Positions 23,994 through 47,597 of a DNA stretch of 47,597 nucleotides are shown here, piece by piece. Numbering within the stretch: the stretch's first letter is position 1; each line of letters opens with the position of its first letter. Position numbers and translations under genes: made by a program. This stretch comes from Verrucomicrobiota bacterium. Lineage in GTDB: Bacteria > Verrucomicrobiota > Verrucomicrobiia > Opitutales > Opitutaceae. The notes beneath the pieces are model-generated. The model was not told the origin of the DNA and searched no databases. It saw only the letters and a list, made by a program, of their open reading frames with translations. The stretch lies in NCBI GenBank assembly GCA_030604905.1, contig JAUVVA010000016.1, forward strand, positions 1-47,597, read 5' to 3'.

Positions 23994-25457
23994 ATGCCCG
24001 CGCCCGACGCCCTCACCCGTTTTCGCAGCCTCCTGCACGAGGCCCTCGAGCAGGCCATGCTCGTGAAGCTCACCCTGGGCAAACCGCGCCCCGGCGCGCC
24101 CGATCCTTCGCTGCGCAACGTCTTCGCCCGCCCCGTCCTCCTCAAGGCCGGCCCCCACATCTCCCTCCTCTACCGACACGCCACCCGCGACATCACCAAA
24201 AACCTTTCGCCCGCCGAGGCCGAGGCGACCCTGCTCGCGTTGCTCGAGGAGGCCTTCCTCGACGCCCACCTCTTCACCCCGCTGCACGGCGCCCAGCTCG
24301 AACAATCCGCCGACGCCGCCCGCCCCGCCCGCCTGCGCGTGAAAACCGCCGCCAGCGCGCCGCCCCTCGCGCCCGCCACCCACGATCGTGGCAAAGCCCG
24401 CGTCATCGCGCCCGAGGCCCCCTGGCTGCGCGCCCTCGGCGTCACCAACGAGCGCGGCCAACCCCGCGAGGGCATGTCGCACAAGTTTCGCCAGATCGAA
24501 AAATTCGCCGAGCTGCTCCGCTCCCTCCTCGGCGAGGCCGGCCTCTCCACCCGCGACCAGACTCCCCCGGCCCCGCGGCTCGACCCCGGCCCCGGCGTGC
24601 CGCCCATCGGCCTGCACCGCGGCGTCAGCTACCCGCCGCCGGCCGACGCGCAGGGCGTCGAAGGCGCCGGACTCAATCTCTGCCCGCCCAGCTCCCTCCG
24701 CCCCACCGCCCCGCTCCGCCTCGCCGACATGGGCGCGGGCAAAGGCTACCTCACCTTCGCCCTCGCCGACCTGCTAGGCGAGGGTGCCGAGATCGTCGGC
24801 ATCGAGCGCCGCGCCGACCTCGTCGCCACCTGCAACCACGTCGCCGCCGACTGCGGCTTCGCCCCGCGCCTCCGCTTCATCGAGGGCGACATCCCCGCCC
24901 CGCCCGCCCCCCATCCCGGCGGCTCCGGCATCGGGCATTGGTCATTGGACATTGGTCATTTCAGCGCGTCGAGCGCAGTCGCGGACGGAGGCAAAGCCGC
25001 ACCCGCACCCGCGCTCGACGCGCTGATCGCGCTCCACGCCTGCGACACCGCCACCGACGACGCCCTCGCCGCCGGCCACGCCGCCGGCGCCCGCCTGCTC
25101 GTCGTTTCCCCCTGTTGCCAAAAAGAGCTGCGACCGCGCCTCACCGCCCCGCCCGTCCTCGCCGACGCCCTCCGCCACGGCATCTTTCACGAACGCCAGG
25201 CCGAGTTTGTCACCGACGCCCTCCGGGCCCAGCTCCTCGAATGCGCCGGCTACCGCACCAAGGTCTTCGAGTTCGTCTCCACCGAGCACACCGCTAAAAA
25301 CCTCATGATCGCCGCCATCCGCCCGGCCTCCCTCGCCGCCCGCGGCGCCGAGTTCAGCCCCGACAGCTCCACGCTCGCCCGCGTGCGCGCCTTCGCCGCC
25401 TTCTACGGCATCCGCGAGCAACGCCTCGCCCGCCACCTCGGCCTCTCGCTCGCATGA
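23994..25457 (+). CDS. SAM-dependent methyltransferase (Methyltransf_32-like)
   Basis: A 487-residue protein. The N-terminal domain has KLTLGKPR and a LYRHATRDITKN segment; a middle GMSHKFRQIEKFAELL helix leads to the Rossmann methyltransferase fold with motif I ADMGAGKGYLTFALADLL, acidic EIVGIERRADLV, and ALHACDTATDDALAAG. The family methylates an unknown substrate. Two segments look inserted relative to the family: a Pro/Gly-rich stretch of ~50 residues before motif I, and residues ~315-335 ([16 protein letters not shown]) encoded by a CATTGGT heptamer array just before the ALHACD motif. The start ATG 23994 matches the beginning of the conserved N-terminal domain. Confidence 0.85.
   Translation: MPAPDALTRFRSLLHEALEQAMLVKLTLGKPRPGAPDPSLRNVFARPVLLKAGPHISLLYRHATRDITKNLSPAEAEATLLALLEEAFLDAHLFTPLHGAQLEQSADAARPARLRVKTAASAPPLAPATHDRGKARVIAPEAPWLRALGVTNERGQPREGMSHKFRQIEKFAELLRSLLGEAGLSTRDQTPPAPRLDPGPGVPPIGLHRGVSYPPPADAQGVEGAGLNLCPPSSLRPTAPLRLADMGAGKGYLTFALADLLGEGAEIVGIERRADLVATCNHVAADCGFAPRLRFIEGDIPAPPAPHPGGSGIGHWSLDIGHFSASSAVADGGKAAPAPALDALIALHACDTATDDALAAGHAAGARLLVVSPCCQKELRPRLTAPPVLADALRHGIFHERQAEFVTDALRAQLLECAGYRTKVFEFVSTEHTAKNLMIAAIRPASLAARGAEFSPDSSTLARVRAFAAFYGIREQRLARHLGLSLA
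24936..24960. repeat. CATTGGT heptamer array inside the methyltransferase gene
   Basis: Three and a half 7-nt units (CATTGGT, CATTGGA, CATTGGT, CATT) lie in frame and encode GHWSLDIGH. No stop or frameshift results. The unit matches intergenic copies at 22039, 33710 and 44409. Confidence 0.85.
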
Positions 25458-33709: not shown

Positions 33710-33758
33710 CATTGGTCATTGGTCATTCGTCATTGGTCATTACCGCGCGAAGCGCGGT
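33710..33758. repeat. CATTGGT heptamer array plus hairpin, upstream of ileS
   Basis: Heptamer units CATTGGT and CATTCGT at 33710-33741 are followed by a perfect hairpin ACCGCGC-GAA-GCGCGGT (33742-33758), 48 bp before the ileS ATG. Confidence 0.85.
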
Positions 33759-33806: not shown

Positions 33807-36797
33807 ATGGCGCACGACCTTAAGCACACCCTCAGCCTCCCCAAGACCGATTTCCCCATGCGCGGGGACCTGCCGAAGCGCGAGCCCCTCCGCCTCGCCG
33901 CCTGGGAAAAGCTAAAGCTCTACGAGGCCATCCAGCAAAAGCGCGCCGGCCAGCCCGCCTTCGTGCTCCACGACGGCCCCCCCTTCACCAACGGCGACGT
34001 TCACATCGGCACCGCCCTCAACAAGTCCCTCAAGGACATCACCCTCCGCTACAAGTCCCTCCGCGGCTTCCGCACGCCCTACGTGCCCGGTTGGGACTGC
34101 CACGGCCTGCCCATCGAGCAAAAAGTCGCCAAGGAAATCCAGGCCTCCGGCCAACAACTCTCCACCGCCGAGCTACGCGCCCGTTGCGACGCCTTCGCCG
34201 AGGGCTGGATCAAGAAGCAGACCGCCTCCTTCAAGCGCCTCGGTGTCCAGGCCGACTGGGCCGCCGAATACAAGACCAAGGCCCCCGCCTTCGAGGCCGA
34301 CATCGTCCGCACCTTCGCCTCTTTCGTCGAGCAGGGCCTCGTCTACCGCTCCAAGAAACCCGTCTACTGGTCCATCCCCTTCGAGACCGCCCTCGCCGAG
34401 GCCGAGATCGAATACGCCGAGCACACCTCGATCGCCATCTGGGTGAAGTTCCTCGTGCCCGTCGCCGAAGCTCAAAAATTCGGCCTCCCGCACGACAAGC
34501 CCCTCAGCGTCGTCATCTGGACCACCACCCCCTGGACCCTCCCGGCCAACCTCGCCATCGCGGTCCACCCCGAGACCGAATACGTCGTCGCCGACCTCGG
34601 CTCCGAGCGCATCCTCGTCGCCCGCGCCCTCGCCCCCGCCGTCCTCGACGCCGCCAAACACCCCGACCCATCATTGGTCATTGGTCATTGGTCATTGGTC
34701 ATTTCGGGCGCGCGTCTCGAGGGCTTGGCTACCCAGCACCCCTTCATCGCGCGCCCGTCCCCGGTCGTCCTCGCCGACTACGTCACCACCGACAGCGGCA
34801 CCGGCTGCGTGCACACCGCCCCCGGCCACGGTGCCGAGGACTATCTCACCGGCCTCAAATACGGCCTCCCGATCTACTGCCCGGTCGGCGACGACGGCCG
34901 CTACCTCGACGACGGCAAAGTCCCCGCCGATCTCGTCGGCGTCTCCTGCTTGGAGACGGTCGAGGACCTCGCCGCCAAGAAACCCGCGCCCGCCAACCTC
35001 GCGGTCCTGAAAAAACTCGCCACCCCCGACGCCGCCACCGGCCACGTCGCCCTCCTCGCCAAGGCCAAATACGTCCACAGCTACCCTCACTGCTGGCGCT
35101 CCAAGACCCCCATCATCTTCCGCGCCGTCGACCAGTGGTTCGTCAGCCTCGACAAAAAACCCGAAGCCCCCGCAGCGCCCGCCTCCTCCGACGTAGGGCG
35201 TTCGCTTGCGAATGCCGCCGACCATTCGCCGCGCGGCGCCGCGCTCGCCGCCATCCGCGACGTCCAATGGTTCCCCGCCTGGGGCCAGGCCCGCATCACC
35301 GGCGCCGTCGAGGCCCGTCCCGACTGGTGCATCAGCCGCCAGCGCTCGTGGGGCGTGCCCATAATCGCCTTCTACGACGCGAAGAAAAACGCCTTCCTCG
35401 ACGCCTCCGTCATCCGCGCCGTCGCCGCCAAGATCGCCGCCCACCCCCGCGGCACCAACCTCTGGTATGAGGCCACCGCCGCCGAGCTGCTCGCCGGCGT
35501 CGCCCTCCCCGCCGGCTGGCCCGCCGCCGCCGAGCTCACCTGCGGCCGCGACACCCTCGACGTCTGGATCGATTCCGGCAGCTCCCACGCCGCCGTCCTT
35601 CGTAGTGGCCAGGGCACTACGCAGTGGCCCGCCGACCTCTACCTCGAGGGCTCCGACCAGCACCGCGGCTGGTTCCAATCCTCCCTTTGGACCGGCGTCA
35701 TCGCCCAGGGCGGCGCGCCCTACAAGGCCGTGCTCACCCACGGCTTCATCGTCGGCGAGGACGGCAAAAAGATCTCCAAGTCCGGCCAATACGAGAAGCC
35801 CCCGACCTCCGACAACTTCGTCAACGACTACGGCGCCGACGTCATCCGCCTCTGGCTCGCCTCGCAGGATTTCACGCAGGACATCACCCTCTCCAAAAAA
35901 ATCCTCGATAACTCCGCCGAGCAGTATCGCTCCTTCCGCAACGCCCTCCGCTACCAGCTCTCGCTCCTCCACGACTTCGAGCCCGCGAAGCACGCCCTCC
36001 CCTACGCCGAGCTCGACGTCCTCGACCGCTGGGCCCTGCACCAGATCTCCAAGCTCCTCGCCGAGGCCACCGCCGCCTACGACGCCTACGAGTTCCACCG
36101 CGTCGTCTCCCTCTGCTCGCACTTCGTGGCCACCACCCTGAGCGCCGTCTACAACGACGTCTGCAAGGACCGCCTCTACACCTTCCCGGTCAACCACCCC
36201 CAGCGCCGCAGCACCCAGACCGCCGTGCACGCCGTCTTCGGCGTCCTCGTCCGCATCCTCGCACCCATCCTCACCTTCACCGCCGACGAGGCCTGGTGCC
36301 ACGCCCACTTCCGCGCCGACCTCCCGCCCCCGGGCGCGCCGAGCCCCGGCTCGGCCTCCGACTCCTCGACTCCCGCCCCGTCCGTCCACCTCAGCGACTG
36401 GCCCACCGCCCACCCCGCCTGGACCGACGACGCCCTCGCCGCCGATTTCGCCGAGCTCCTCAAGGTCCGCGCCAAGGTCAACGAGACCCTCGAGCCCCTC
36501 CGCCAGGCCGGCAAACTCGGCAAGTCCCTCGACGCCGCCATCACCCTCGAGGTCGCCGCCTCCGATCCGCTCGACGCCATCCTGCGCCGCCACGAGGCCT
36601 TCCTGCCCGAGCTCTTCATCGTCTCCCACGTCACCCTCGCCGAGACCCCGGCCAACCAGCCGCTCGCCGTCGCCGCCCGTCCCTGTTCCGAGCTTGGCTA
36701 CGTGCGCTGCCCGCGCTGCTGGCGCTGGGTGCCCGCCTTGCAACCCGCCGGCGAACACGAGGTCTGTCCTCGCTGCGCCGACGCCATCACCGGGTAA
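33807..36797 (+). CDS. ileS: Isoleucyl-tRNA synthetase carrying four in-frame repeat segments
   Basis: Charges tRNA-Ile. Class I signatures: HIGH-type HIGT (res 66-69), GWDCHGLPIEQKVA, the editing-domain GCVHTAPGHGAEDY, LEGSDQHRGWF and KMSKS-type KISKS (655-659). The C-terminal zinc site is CPRCWRW...CPRC. At 996 residues it is longer than the usual ~930. Four repeat-like segments are read in frame: a heptamer array at res ~289-300 (editing domain), a hairpin at ~464-470, a hairpin at ~599-605 just before WPADLYLEGS, and a GCCGAGC-family hairpin at ~842-850 in the tRNA-binding region. Each falls in a loop between conserved blocks. No frameshift is present, so the enzyme should be functional. 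It lies between hemG and a DksA-like gene. Confidence 0.96.
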   Translation: MAHDLKHTLSLPKTDFPMRGDLPKREPLRLAAWEKLKLYEAIQQKRAGQPAFVLHDGPPFTNGDVHIGTALNKSLKDITLRYKSLRGFRTPYVPGWDCHGLPIEQKVAKEIQASGQQLSTAELRARCDAFAEGWIKKQTASFKRLGVQADWAAEYKTKAPAFEADIVRTFASFVEQGLVYRSKKPVYWSIPFETALAEAEIEYAEHTSIAIWVKFLVPVAEAQKFGLPHDKPLSVVIWTTTPWTLPANLAIAVHPETEYVVADLGSERILVARALAPAVLDAAKHPDPSLVIGHWSLVISGARLEGLATQHPFIARPSPVVLADYVTTDSGTGCVHTAPGHGAEDYLTGLKYGLPIYCPVGDDGRYLDDGKVPADLVGVSCLETVEDLAAKKPAPANLAVLKKLATPDAATGHVALLAKAKYVHSYPHCWRSKTPIIFRAVDQWFVSLDKKPEAPAAPASSDVGRSLANAADHSPRGAALAAIRDVQWFPAWGQARITGAVEARPDWCISRQRSWGVPIIAFYDAKKNAFLDASVIRAVAAKIAAHPRGTNLWYEATAAELLAGVALPAGWPAAAELTCGRDTLDVWIDSGSSHAAVLRSGQGTTQWPADLYLEGSDQHRGWFQSSLWTGVIAQGGAPYKAVLTHGFIVGEDGKKISKSGQYEKPPTSDNFVNDYGADVIRLWLASQDFTQDITLSKKILDNSAEQYRSFRNALRYQLSLLHDFEPAKHALPYAELDVLDRWALHQISKLLAEATAAYDAYEFHRVVSLCSHFVATTLSAVYNDVCKDRLYTFPVNHPQRRSTQTAVHAVFGVLVRILAPILTFTADEAWCHAHFRADLPPPGAPSPGSASDSSTPAPSVHLSDWPTAHPAWTDDALAADFAELLKVRAKVNETLEPLRQAGKLGKSLDAAITLEVAASDPLDAILRRHEAFLPELFIVSHVTLAETPANQPLAVAARPCSELGYVRCPRCWRWVPALQPAGEHEVCPRCADAITG
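34672..34703. repeat. CATTGGT heptamer array inside ileS
   Basis: Four and a half perfect CATTGGT units, read in frame as [10 protein letters not shown] within the editing domain. Composition contrasts sharply with the GC-rich coding sequence on both sides. Confidence 0.9.
35197..35216. repeat. Hairpin inside ileS (GGCGTTCGC-TT-GCGAATGCC)
   Basis: A 9-bp stem with one G-T pair and a 2-nt loop, read as GRSLANA. It lies in a stretch (APASSDVGRSLANAADHSPR) that has no counterpart in typical IleRS between the WFVSLD and WFPAWG blocks. Confidence 0.6.
35601..35621. repeat. Hairpin inside ileS (CGTAGTG-GCCAGGG-CACTACG)
   Basis: A perfect 7-bp stem with a 7-nt loop, read in frame as RSGQGTT just before WPADLYLEGSDQHRGW. 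It occupies a variable-length surface loop. Confidence 0.6.
36330..36355. repeat. GCCGAGC-family hairpin inside ileS
   Basis: A variant with stem GCCGAGC-CCCG-GCTCGGC preceded by CCGGGCGC, read in frame as PGAPSPGSA. The same reading frame (PSPGSA) is used by the copy at 228-253 in the first gene. Confidence 0.8.
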
Positions 36798-36864
36798 ACC
36801 CCCACCCCTCGCACCGGCCCGGCGCTTCACCCTTTCGCTTCCACAACTTACACCCAAACCCACC

Positions 36865-37962
36865 ATGGCACACAAACCAGCCCGCAAGCCCGCCCCGGTC
36901 GCCAAAAAGAAAGCCGCCAAGCCCGCCCCCAAGCCCGCCGCCGCCAAAGCCAAGAAGCCCGCCAAGCCGGCCAAAGTCTCCCGCTCGCCCGCCAAACCCT
37001 CTCGTCCTTCCAAACCTTCCCTCCCTTCCAAATCAGTCGCGAAAAAACCCGCGCCCAAACCGATGTCCAAGTCCAAGCCCACGCCTCCTCCTTCCAACAA
37101 GAAACCCGCCGCCAAGCCCGCCCCCGCTCCCGCTCCCGCCGCCAAGGCCAAACCCGCCCCGGCCCCCGCCAAAGCCGCTCCGGCCCCCGCCCCGGCCCCC
37201 CGCGTCGCCCTCCCCAAGCTCAAGGGCAAGGACGCCGTCCGCGCCAAGATCCTCGCCCAGCGCGCCAAGCCCGCCAAACCCGCCGCCTTCTCCCTCGACG
37301 AGGTGCTGGCCATCGCCAAGACCACCGCCGCCAAGGCCCCCGTCGTCGAGGCCCAGGCCACCGGCCCCGTCATCGCCACCAAGTCCGGCAAGATCGCCCC
37401 CCTCCCGGCCGACGCCCTCAAGCCCGCCGCGCCCACCAAGGTCAAGGCCGCCTCCCTCGCCGACATCCTCGGCTTCAACCCCCGCGCCAAGGCCTCCCAC
37501 GCCGAGAGCGAGGAGGACGCCGTGCCCGAAAAGTTTAAGCGCTACTACAAGCTCCTCGTCGAGCTGCGCAACCACGTCACCGGCCAGGTCGACCAACACT
37601 CCGAGGAGACGCTCAAGCGCTCCGCCAAGGAGGACAGCGGCGACCTCTCCAGCTACGGCACCGACGGCGGCACCGATTCCTTCGATCGCGACTTCGCCCT
37701 CAGCCTCGTCGCCAACGAGCAGGAGGCCCTCGCCGAGATCGAGGCCGCCATCCAGCGCATCAAGGCCGGCACCTACGGCGTCTGCGAACACACCGAGAAG
37801 CCCATCCCCAAGGAGCGCCTCCTCGCCGTGCCCTTCACCCGCTACACCGCCGAGGCCATGAAGGAGGTCGAGAAGACCCGCTTCCGCGTCCGCGGCCAGA
37901 CCGGCATCCTCGGCGAAGGCGAAGAAGGCGCCACCAAGATCGACGACGGCGGCGACGACTGA
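36865..37962 (+). CDS. TraR/DksA-family protein with Lys/Ala/Pro-rich N-terminal tail
   Basis: A 365-residue protein. Residues 1-125 are a Lys/Ala/Pro-rich, histone-H1-like tail (APVAKKKAAKPAPKPAAAKA type), a likely nucleic-acid-binding region. After a variable linker, residues ~215-340 match DksA/TraR: the coiled-coil KFKRYYKLLVELRNHVTGQV...DSFDRDFALSLVANEQEALA and the former zinc-finger region AGTYGVCEHTEKPIPKERLL. Only one of the four zinc Cys residues is left (Cys in GVCEHT); Thr, Pro and Thr occupy the rest. Cysteine-poor versions are known in the family. The acidic tail is DDGGDD. DksA-type proteins bind RNA polymerase; here that role is inferred. Start: ATG 36865, 67 bp after ileS. Confidence 0.88.
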   Translation: MAHKPARKPAPVAKKKAAKPAPKPAAAKAKKPAKPAKVSRSPAKPSRPSKPSLPSKSVAKKPAPKPMSKSKPTPPPSNKKPAAKPAPAPAPAAKAKPAPAPAKAAPAPAPAPRVALPKLKGKDAVRAKILAQRAKPAKPAAFSLDEVLAIAKTTAAKAPVVEAQATGPVIATKSGKIAPLPADALKPAAPTKVKAASLADILGFNPRAKASHAESEEDAVPEKFKRYYKLLVELRNHVTGQVDQHSEETLKRSAKEDSGDLSSYGTDGGTDSFDRDFALSLVANEQEALAEIEAAIQRIKAGTYGVCEHTEKPIPKERLLAVPFTRYTAEAMKEVEKTRFRVRGQTGILGEGEEGATKIDDGGDD

Positions 37963-46868: not shown

Positions 46869-47597
46869 ATGTCCCTCGCCTTGCCCGAGTCGTCCGCGCC
46901 CGCCTCCGCCCCCTTCCGCCCCGACCAGAAGGAATACCTCCAAGGCTTCTTCGCCGCCCTCGCCACCACCGGCCGTCTCCACCCCGGGAACGCCGAGCCC
47001 CAGCTCGGCCCGTCCTCCTCCGCTCCCACCGCCGCCCCCGCCCTCTTCCACAGCACCCCCGTCGACGACCTCTGCCAGCAGGAGAAGTGGAAACACGCCG
47101 AGCACCCGCTCGACGGCTGGGAGCGCCTCCTCGCCCACGCCTCCGCCGACAAGGCGCCCGACGCCGAGCACAACTACCGCTTCCGCTGGCACGGCCTTTT
47201 CCACGTCGCCCCCGCGCAGCAGAGCTACATGCTCCGCCTCCGCCTGCCCGGCTGCGCGATCACCAGCCACCAGCTCCACGGCCTCGCCGACCTCGCCTCC
47301 ACCCTCGCAGGCGGCTACGCCCACATCACCACCCGCGGCAACCTCCAGCTCCGCGAGATCAAGCCTCGCGACACCGTCCGCGTGCTCATGCGCCTCGCCG
47401 AGCTCGGCCTCAGCTCGCGCGGCTCCGGCGCCGACAACCTGCGCAACATTACCGCCTCGCCCGACAGCGGTTTCGCGCCCGACGAGGTGCTCGACGTGCG
47501 CCCCTACGCGCTCGCCCTCCACCACTACGTCCTCAACCACCGCGACCTCTTCGACCTCCCGCGCAAGTTCAACATCTCCTTCGACAACGGCGGCAGC
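46869..47597 (+). CDS. nirA: Assimilatory nitrite reductase, NirA type (3' end outside window)
   Basis: The frame is open from ATG 46869 to the window end: 243 residues of the N-terminal part. Features of the sulfite/nitrite reductase family are present: EKWKHAEHPLDGWERLL, FRWHGLFHVAPAQQSYMLRL followed by LPG, GYAHITTRGNLQLREIKPRD and SRGSGADNLRNITASP. The iron-sulfur/siroheme Cys motifs are expected further downstream. Reduces nitrite to ammonium, following nitrate import by the adjacent transporter. A GCCGAGC-family hairpin (46984-47009) is read in frame as PGNAEPQLG at residues ~39-47. Sulfite reductase is the alternative, but the nitrate context argues against it. Confidence 0.88.
   Translation, partial: MSLALPESSAPASAPFRPDQKEYLQGFFAALATTGRLHPGNAEPQLGPSSSAPTAAPALFHSTPVDDLCQQEKWKHAEHPLDGWERLLAHASADKAPDAEHNYRFRWHGLFHVAPAQQSYMLRLRLPGCAITSHQLHGLADLASTLAGGYAHITTRGNLQLREIKPRDTVRVLMRLAELGLSSRGSGADNLRNITASPDSGFAPDEVLDVRPYALALHHYVLNHRDLFDLPRKFNISFDNGGS
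46984..47009. repeat. GCCGAGC-family hairpin inside nirA
   Basis: CCGGGAAC then GCCGAGC-CCCA-GCTCGGC, identical to the intergenic copy at 38792-38817 but translated as PGNAEPQLG in a different frame from the copies in the first gene and ileS. Confidence 0.85.

Follow-up and report, generated by a model that had tools for sequence, protein, structure and literature searches.

Three in-frame, repeat-derived inserts in the isoleucine–tRNA ligase gene of an Opitutaceae bacterium

The isoleucine–tRNA ligase gene, ileS, of a Verrucomicrobiota bacterium from the family Opitutaceae (GenBank assembly GCA_030604905.1) carries three repeat-derived inserts. The gene lies on contig JAUVVA010000016.1, of which we analyzed positions 1 to 47,597 (hereafter the window); the genome to which the window belongs, G000, is a draft of 4.19 Mb in 234 contigs that is 80.9% complete. 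It is quite likely that all three inserts are in-frame passengers that originated as short repeats, mobile or expanding, of this same genome, namely tandem heptamers at site A and palindromes of, or resembling, the repetitive extragenic palindromic (REP) type at sites B and D (Table 1). An initial annotation of the window, made from its letters alone, had placed four structured sequences in ileS and judged insertion, of several unrelated families, more likely than chance. Each is located where it was placed. Insertion holds for A, B, and D, given their indels relative to congeners, the dispersed families to which they belong in the same genome, and the different fillings of other species; it does not hold for the hairpin at site C, and the inserts are therefore three, not four. 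Our reading draws on direct observation of repeat identity, indels, reading frames, orientation, the sharing of ileS sites between species, and predicted disorder at B and D.

The open reading frame (ORF) at 33807 to 36797 scores 777 bits against the TIGR00392 profile, the cut-off of which is 621, and its product contains the Pfam domains tRNA-synt_1 and Anticodon_1. It is thus an intact ileS, as the initial annotation had maintained in describing a gene unbroken by its repeats. Among named organisms, the closest ileS found by scanning genomes belongs to an Opitutaceae bacterium (locus L059, 69% identity). The same annotation had put the protein at some 60 residues longer than usual; longer it is, but by 25 to 38 residues when its 996 are set against the 958 to 971 of the seven full-length congeners in which B and D hold no long insert (the Staphylococcus aureus chain has 917). 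Alignment with the S. aureus enzyme (1ffy) leaves gaps of 3 residues at A, 24 at B, and 19 at D. An AlphaFold model built from an alignment of 27 sequences has a mean predicted local distance difference test score (pLDDT) of 88.5, single-sequence input having given 34.5, and its template modeling (TM) scores of 0.85/0.92 to IleRS 8c9e indicate that the IleRS fold is kept. Runs of at least three consecutive residues with a pLDDT below 50 are predicted only at residues 457 to 470 (site B) and 837 to 855 (site D), site A being modeled in the mid 80s and site C at about 70 to 80. A 932-codon open frame also runs antisense across ileS (window 34692 to 37490, minus strand), and we take it for a shadow of GC-rich codon usage.

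Table 1. Features of the window discussed in the text, with positions counted from its first letter
Feature	Positions	Strand	Remarks
ileS, isoleucine–tRNA ligase, host of the inserts	33807–36797	+	996 aa; identified by profile, Pfam domains, and fold
Site A, (CATTGGT)4 + CATT array	34672–34703	+	Residues 289–299; 4 residues longer than congeners without the array
Site B, GTAG REP GTAGGGCGTTCGCTTGCGAATGCC	35193–35216	+	Read VGRSLANA; within a longer Ala/Pro/Ser-rich insert, about residues 451–474
Site C, hairpin CGTAGTG-N7-CACTACG	35601–35621	+	Judged a chance inverted repeat; no insert
Site D, GCCGAGC-family REP-like hairpin with CCCCCGGGCGC foot	36327–36355	+	Read GAPSPGSA; insert within residues 838–861
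Intergenic CATTGGT/CATTCGT array	33710–33741	+	Ends 65 nt ahead of the ileS start codon
Second in-frame heptamer array, inside a Methyltransf_32 gene (23994–25457)	24936–24956	+	12-residue peptide
GCCGAGC hairpin	46992–47009	+	In predicted ORF 46869–47597, 123 nt from the predicted start; the G013 homologue has a GGACG palindrome 11 bp off

The array at site A, in what we take to be the editing (CP1) domain, belongs to a family of tandem 7-mers that is dispersed and chiefly intergenic. The 14-mer CATTGGTCATTGGT has 216 exact matches in the genome, overlaps counted, and none in a reversed control; at up to two mismatches it matches the window 21 times where 0.05 matches are expected. Within 412 kb of G000 we counted 37 arrays of at least three units, the unit being CATTGGT/CATTCGT: 23 intergenic, 5 partly within an ORF, and 9 in predicted ORFs, 7 of which sit no more than 70 nt from the predicted start. 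These arrays have 43% GC in a genome sample of 70% GC. Because 7 is 1 modulo 3, the heptamers can be read as coding sequence: the three sense frames of CATTGGT yield one heptapeptide, HWSLVIG, and all antisense frames of a perfect array contain TGA. ATTTCAA and CAGGTCT likewise give one sense heptapeptide and a TGA in every antisense frame.

Site B has the anatomy of a REP, for which a GTAG foot followed by a hairpin is given as a feature in the sections of PMC3733652 and PMC6006769 on which we draw. Its GTAG foot (35193 to 35196) leads into GGCGTTCGC-TT-GCGAATGCC, a hairpin with one mispair whose stem shares or abuts the last G of the foot. Single in the window, the hairpin (35197 to 35216) has six copies in G000 including itself, and the 21-mer family is dispersed elsewhere in the genus, with 24 copies in G005 and 11 in G013; reversed controls gave none. 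The site D hairpin is more abundant at home. Allowing up to three mismatches, GCCGAGCCCCGGCTCGGC matches the window 11 times at 7 places (1.38 expected), and the GGGANCGCCGAGCNNNNGCTCGGC family, counted with its GGGANC foot, has 59 copies in G000 (control 0) and 15 in G009, none of the other 13 genomes having more than 6; the ileS copy, with its foot changed to GGGCGC from GGGAAC, lies outside the 59. CCCC precedes the foot in three copies of this family that were inspected. The genome-wide search that the initial annotation had recommended for each repeat thus assigns A, B, and D to multicopy families with controls of zero, and its statement that two of the four families also occur between genes is correct for the window.

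Enzymes that could plausibly move such palindromes are encoded across the genus. The Y1 transposase domain PF01797 was found in 14 of the 15 genus genomes, and four of six loci tested (L149, L150, L158, and L166) exceed the cut-off of 80 for NF047646, the profile for REP-associated tyrosine transposases (RAYTs), L146 scoring 66.4 bits. Three of the four Y1 loci in G000 were tested (L149, L158, and L166), and all three exceed it. In G005, two site B-family REPs with a GTAG foot stand on each side of a Y1 gene, L167, which falls slightly short of the cut-off at 77.7 bits. In G007, a copy of the site D family sits some 17 bp ahead of the point where a RAYT gene is predicted to start, and another lies inside that gene; RAYT L149 of G000 is flanked by a sister hairpin in which GCCGGGC replaces GCCGAGC. 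The internal copy in G007 (L150 on contig C102, around 1588 to 1611) is a palindrome held antisense in the transposase's own coding sequence, where L150 reads AELELGVP and L149 reads AELRLRIP with an equal number of residues. The site D repeat might have derived from its transposase gene, or might have converted it.

Site C behaves otherwise. Its hairpin has no second place in the genome within three mismatches, and we found no indel there across relatives, which have an equal number of residues, like residues, and unrelated codons. The initial annotation had itself named like residues with unrelated codons, or absence of the sequence elsewhere in the genome, as grounds for abandoning an insert, and both are found here. 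The lack of a second copy, the constant length in relatives, and the chance expectation for such hairpins rule out site C as an insert.

Evidence for insertion also comes from comparing ileS across the genus. Loci of the gene were taken from 14 of the 15 genus genomes, including G000, and from 16 further genomes; G002, which has the gene in pieces only, was left out, and the loci of G006, G007, and G008 are partial. Length differences within the genus fall at A (4 to 7 residues), B, and D; elsewhere, four places vary by 1 or 2 residues, and G006 has a deletion of 6 residues. Six repeat patterns searched over the 14 rows occur only at residues 289 to 291, 454 to 465, and 844 to 850; six rows hold at least one (G000, G013, G004, G001, G006, and G007), and eight hold none. 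At site A, extra residues are present in 10 of the 13 rows with data, as heptamers still visible in G000, G006, G007, and less cleanly G004, and as substituted forms in the remaining filled rows; the array is absent from G009, G005, G003, and other genera.

Sites B and D are filled less often and more variously. Long inserts at B occur in 5 of 14 rows and differ in content: the GTAG REP in G000, the GGAGGGACG palindrome in G013, a variant of that palindrome in G004 and G001 (followed by heptamers in G004), and a GCCGAGC-type palindrome and then CATTGGT/CATTCGT heptamers in G006. Long inserts at D occur in 4 of 14 rows, as the GCCGAGC hairpin in G000, TCAAATY heptamers in G013, TCAGGTC heptamers in G004, and, in G001, related heptamers with another hairpin. 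Searches across the genus connect most fillings with a family that is dispersed in the genome concerned. The GGAGGGACG palindrome has 49 copies in G013, the ileS copy included, and the TCANNYC heptamer has 39 overlapping matches in G004 and 7 in G001, the reversed control giving a single match (in G006). Exact AAATTTCAAATCTGAAAT is confined to the ileS of G013; the degenerate TCAAATY unit gives 6 overlapping matches at 4 places in that genome and also matches G007 (4), G000 (2), G002 (2), and G001 (1). On an ileS tree from which the columns of A, B, and D were excluded, and of which several forks are only 82 to 91% supported, mapping by eye suggests a single gain at A, four or more distinct fillings at B, and three or more at D. 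The GGAGGGACG palindromes of G013 (contigs C71, C85, C221, C243, and C244) are often arranged as inverted pairs with starts 61 to 63 bp apart, in the manner of REPINs, which are paired REPs.

That the repeats were misjoined into ileS during assembly would suit a draft as fragmented and incomplete as that of G000. The inserts, however, are short and leave the frame intact, and relatives assembled independently, such as G013 (95% complete) and G001 (92%), also have these sites filled, so we give an artifact almost no weight; assemblies alone were compared.

Nor is ileS the only gene to hold such repeats. In G000, the mfd gene (L188, 945 to 4502) has four in-frame GCCGAGC palindromes, and a thioredoxin-domain gene (L187, 5608 to 8001) has three, along with a further pair read GTGVPPV...GRDAHAT. 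G013, G006, and G007 have none of the L187 palindromes at the corresponding places. One of the palindromes is a clean 42-nt insert with empty sites in all three relatives, another adds at least 30 nt, and the rest lie where the aligned lengths are uneven. Beside the first L187 place, G009 does have a GCCGAGC copy. Among the ORFs with copies lying deep within them, 18 of 18 scanned have Pfam domain matches (L182, L190, L201, L211, L222, and others were left out). The Pfam-supported hosts, named from domain content, include mfd, a dnaE-type polymerase, uvrA, tex, a U32 peptidase in two species, a CysJ-like flavoprotein, a carboxylase, and glycosidases.

We examined the strand of these copies in 60 further stretches (20 each from G000, G004, and G013) chosen for holding repeats, together with the 412 kb of G000; the filter used passed no copy of the GTTCGC family and omitted the ileS site D copy with its changed foot. 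Deep within genes, the two main palindromes, GCCGAGC and GGACG, have 25 sense and 0 antisense copies; palindromes nearer the edges of ORFs are 10 sense to 1 antisense, and genic heptamers 21 to 1. In the spacers between tandem genes, 6 palindromes run along the genes and 5 against. The third palindrome family, GTTCGC, is present once in sense, in ileS, and once deep and antisense (L185). Of the 8 GGACG palindromes deep within genes, 7 are read as GGTPSPASA or nearly so (P = 0.0026), and the 17 deep GCCGAGC copies are read as GTPSPSSA (10), NAEPQLG (6), or ERRAPAR (1).

Taken together, these observations suggest a scenario in which insertions strike many places and those that survive in genes keep the frame, with a net length that is a multiple of three. 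Survivors would have no stop on the strand that is read, would encode mostly uncharged peptides (Gly/Ser/Pro/Ala-like or otherwise neutral), and would fall in a surface loop. Single-strand transposases of the Y1 (TnpA-REP/RAYT) kind most likely introduced copies of the REP-type palindromes at B, with its GTAG foot, and at D, without one; the heptamer array at A, which probably spread there, may lengthen by slippage. Under this scenario, the three tolerant IleRS sites would be filled, presumably neutrally, by whichever family is active in each species.

A different possibility is that inserts are renewed at fixed sites, an inserted repeat being later overwritten by an active family through conversion or re-targeting, so that sites persist while families change. 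Among 17 G000 elements in predicted ORFs with a counterpart in the sister genome G013, 8 have a G013 element within 40 bp, of another family only in 7 cases and of the same family in 1. Random placement in the same genes gave a mean of 0.98, and none of 200,000 draws reached 8. Two of the four mfd places differ between the species: one has REP1 in G000 but REP2 in the G013 orthologue, and the other has REP1 against a CATTGGT array. Most of these pairs, however, come from stretches fetched for their repeats, and 3 of the 17 elements are no more than about 150 nt away from a predicted start or the end of a contig. When sites were picked from the G000 side alone, all four proved empty in G013, so turnover is not established as general. 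Independent strikes on a few tolerant loops explain the pairs equally well, and we consider overwriting unlikely. A wider form of the idea strikes us as speculative and rather improbable: repeat sites would be long-lived addresses rewritten in place, and in sense, by the active family, different palindromes would for this reason encode the near-identical linkers GTPSPSSA and GGTPSPASA at one and the same residue of Mfd, and the three ileS addresses would record the repeat history of the genus.

Several observations weigh against the reading of the ileS inserts as transposase-borne or neutrally spreading passengers. No RAYT in G000 was found flanked by the site B or site D family (three of its four Y1 loci were read), and the role of RAYT-type enzymes in moving the inserts is one that we infer from sequence, transposition itself being unobserved. 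The site D family lacks the GTAG foot, having GGGA(A/G)C, or CCCCCGGGCGC in ileS, and is filed as REP-like, not as a GTAG REP. The variant palindrome at site B has no other pattern match in G004 or G001. The sense bias of the palindromes exceeds what stop codons explain, all frames of antisense REP1 and REP2 being open. Nor is the bias absolute, given the one antisense copy near an ORF edge and the deep antisense copy of the third family (L185). Two heptamer stretches, in a dnaE-type gene (L223) and a U32 peptidase gene (L213) of G013, are antisense, and their changed units avoid an in-frame TGA. Site A does not look neutral: over its 39 positions G000 differs from its sister G013 at 17, about fivefold the 9.3% seen elsewhere in ileS, and from the more distant G007 at only 3. 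Finally, ileS is not enriched in inverted repeats as such, there being 4 perfect ones (arms of at least 7, loops of 2 to 8) against 1.97 expected over 300 synonymous shuffles (P = 0.11).

Hairpin enrichment was accordingly dropped as stand-alone evidence, and the significance of B and D comes from family membership instead. The lack of overall enrichment would suit the view that all four structures arose by chance in a coding sequence of 70% GC whose loops are rich in Ala/Pro/Ser, and that view describes the site C hairpin well. For A, B, and D it is refuted by the family counts, that is, by exact 21-mer and 18-mer sharing with dispersed families for which controls are 0 and by heptamers far poorer in GC than their surroundings; as an account of all four, chance is scarcely credible.

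The behavior of site A also bears on the possibility that the inserts are useful and kept by selection, whether because mRNA hairpins and heptamers slow the ribosome between domains or because the loops give IleRS a new contact. In comparisons of G000 with G007 or G006 the CATTGGT array differs at 3 to 4 of its 39 positions (8 to 10%), below the 14% of the rest of the gene, and the uniform sense orientation of the deep genic palindromes is in keeping with a benefit. Seven full-length congeners nonetheless do without long inserts at B and D, the filling varies by species, and many unrelated genes hold the same elements. We therefore judge usefulness very unlikely and favor passenger insertion.

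The heptamers show an orientation of their own between genes. In tandem-gene spacers, 23 of 23 CATTGGT arrays of at least two units (L039 to L058 and the window) are co-oriented with the genes. When the majority array orientation on a contig is denoted O, tandem spacers with genes along O hold 19 arrays in 21.4 kb and those with genes against O hold 0 in 4.3 kb; convergent and divergent spacers hold 7. In G018, assembled as one contig (L252 to L271), eight distinct arrays of at least three units at 0.72 to 1.63 Mb are on the plus strand and one at 3.41 Mb is on the minus strand, each agreeing with the local gene majority. Heptamer orientation may follow either the strand of the genes or the direction of replication.

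The Opitutaceae are named after the genus of Opitutus terrae. In-frame intragenic GTAG REPs associated with RAYTs, with the highest number in O. terrae, are described in the sections of PMC3733652 (2013) consulted here; hosts there include repair and replication genes and tRNA synthetases, and different REPs lie near the same recB site in two Xanthomonas. The elements that we describe resemble those REPs as short, dispersed palindromes with a GTAG foot, in frame inside genes. They differ from that account, as far as those sections go, in that one gene has three sites, which across the genus hold six counted families, among them heptamer arrays and palindromes lacking GTAG, in that turnover is traced over 14 congeneric rows, and in that deep genic copies are nearly all sense. 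The main text of that paper, in the form consulted, has no words starting with "isoleuc" or "hept". The sections of PMC4679880 (2015) that we used report TAACTGA heptamer arrays in Beggiatoaceae and related heptamers in cyanobacteria. Like ours, those arrays are tandem 7-mers, mostly intergenic, running in the direction of the downstream gene in the genome chiefly studied, and subject inside ORFs to the same translational constraint on which strand can be read. Unlike the CATTGGT/CATTCGT unit, however, TAACTGA is readable on the reverse strand, its forward strand carrying a stop (PMC4679880, same sections).

The initial annotation had likened the ileS inserts to Rickettsia palindromic elements (RPEs), a comparison that is apt in effect, although RPEs are not the nearest relatives: the palindromes are of the REP type, one of them having a GTAG foot and, in a congener, a RAYT-like gene. 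RPEs are about 100 to 150 bp long, whereas the units here are of 24 to 29 bp or are heptamer arrays. RPEs sit in frame within ORFs whose protein products are probably functional (cited in the consulted part of PMC3733652), and the ileS inserts appear to share this property, judging by the open frame, the family score, and the modeled fold. In the open-access papers searched we found no report of palindromes mixed with heptamers at constant positions in a single essential gene, with families turning over among congeners, and no paper on REPs in Opitutaceae or on heptanucleotide tandem repeats in Verrucomicrobia. In-frame intragenic REPs are thus already known; newer are the turnover of several families at fixed sites, the heptamer inserts, and the bias toward sense, linker-coding copies.

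Repeats called extragenic, together with heptamer arrays, are here sources of new coding sequence in the housekeeping genes of a single genus. Loops of this kind are not domains, and hairpins of this kind are not always regulatory, which is a warning for annotation. With empty and filled alleles occurring naturally at the same sites, the rules of tolerance, be they of frame, strand, peptide, or loop, become testable by comparative genomics, and the entry of REPs and heptamer arrays into new sites is open to the same approach.

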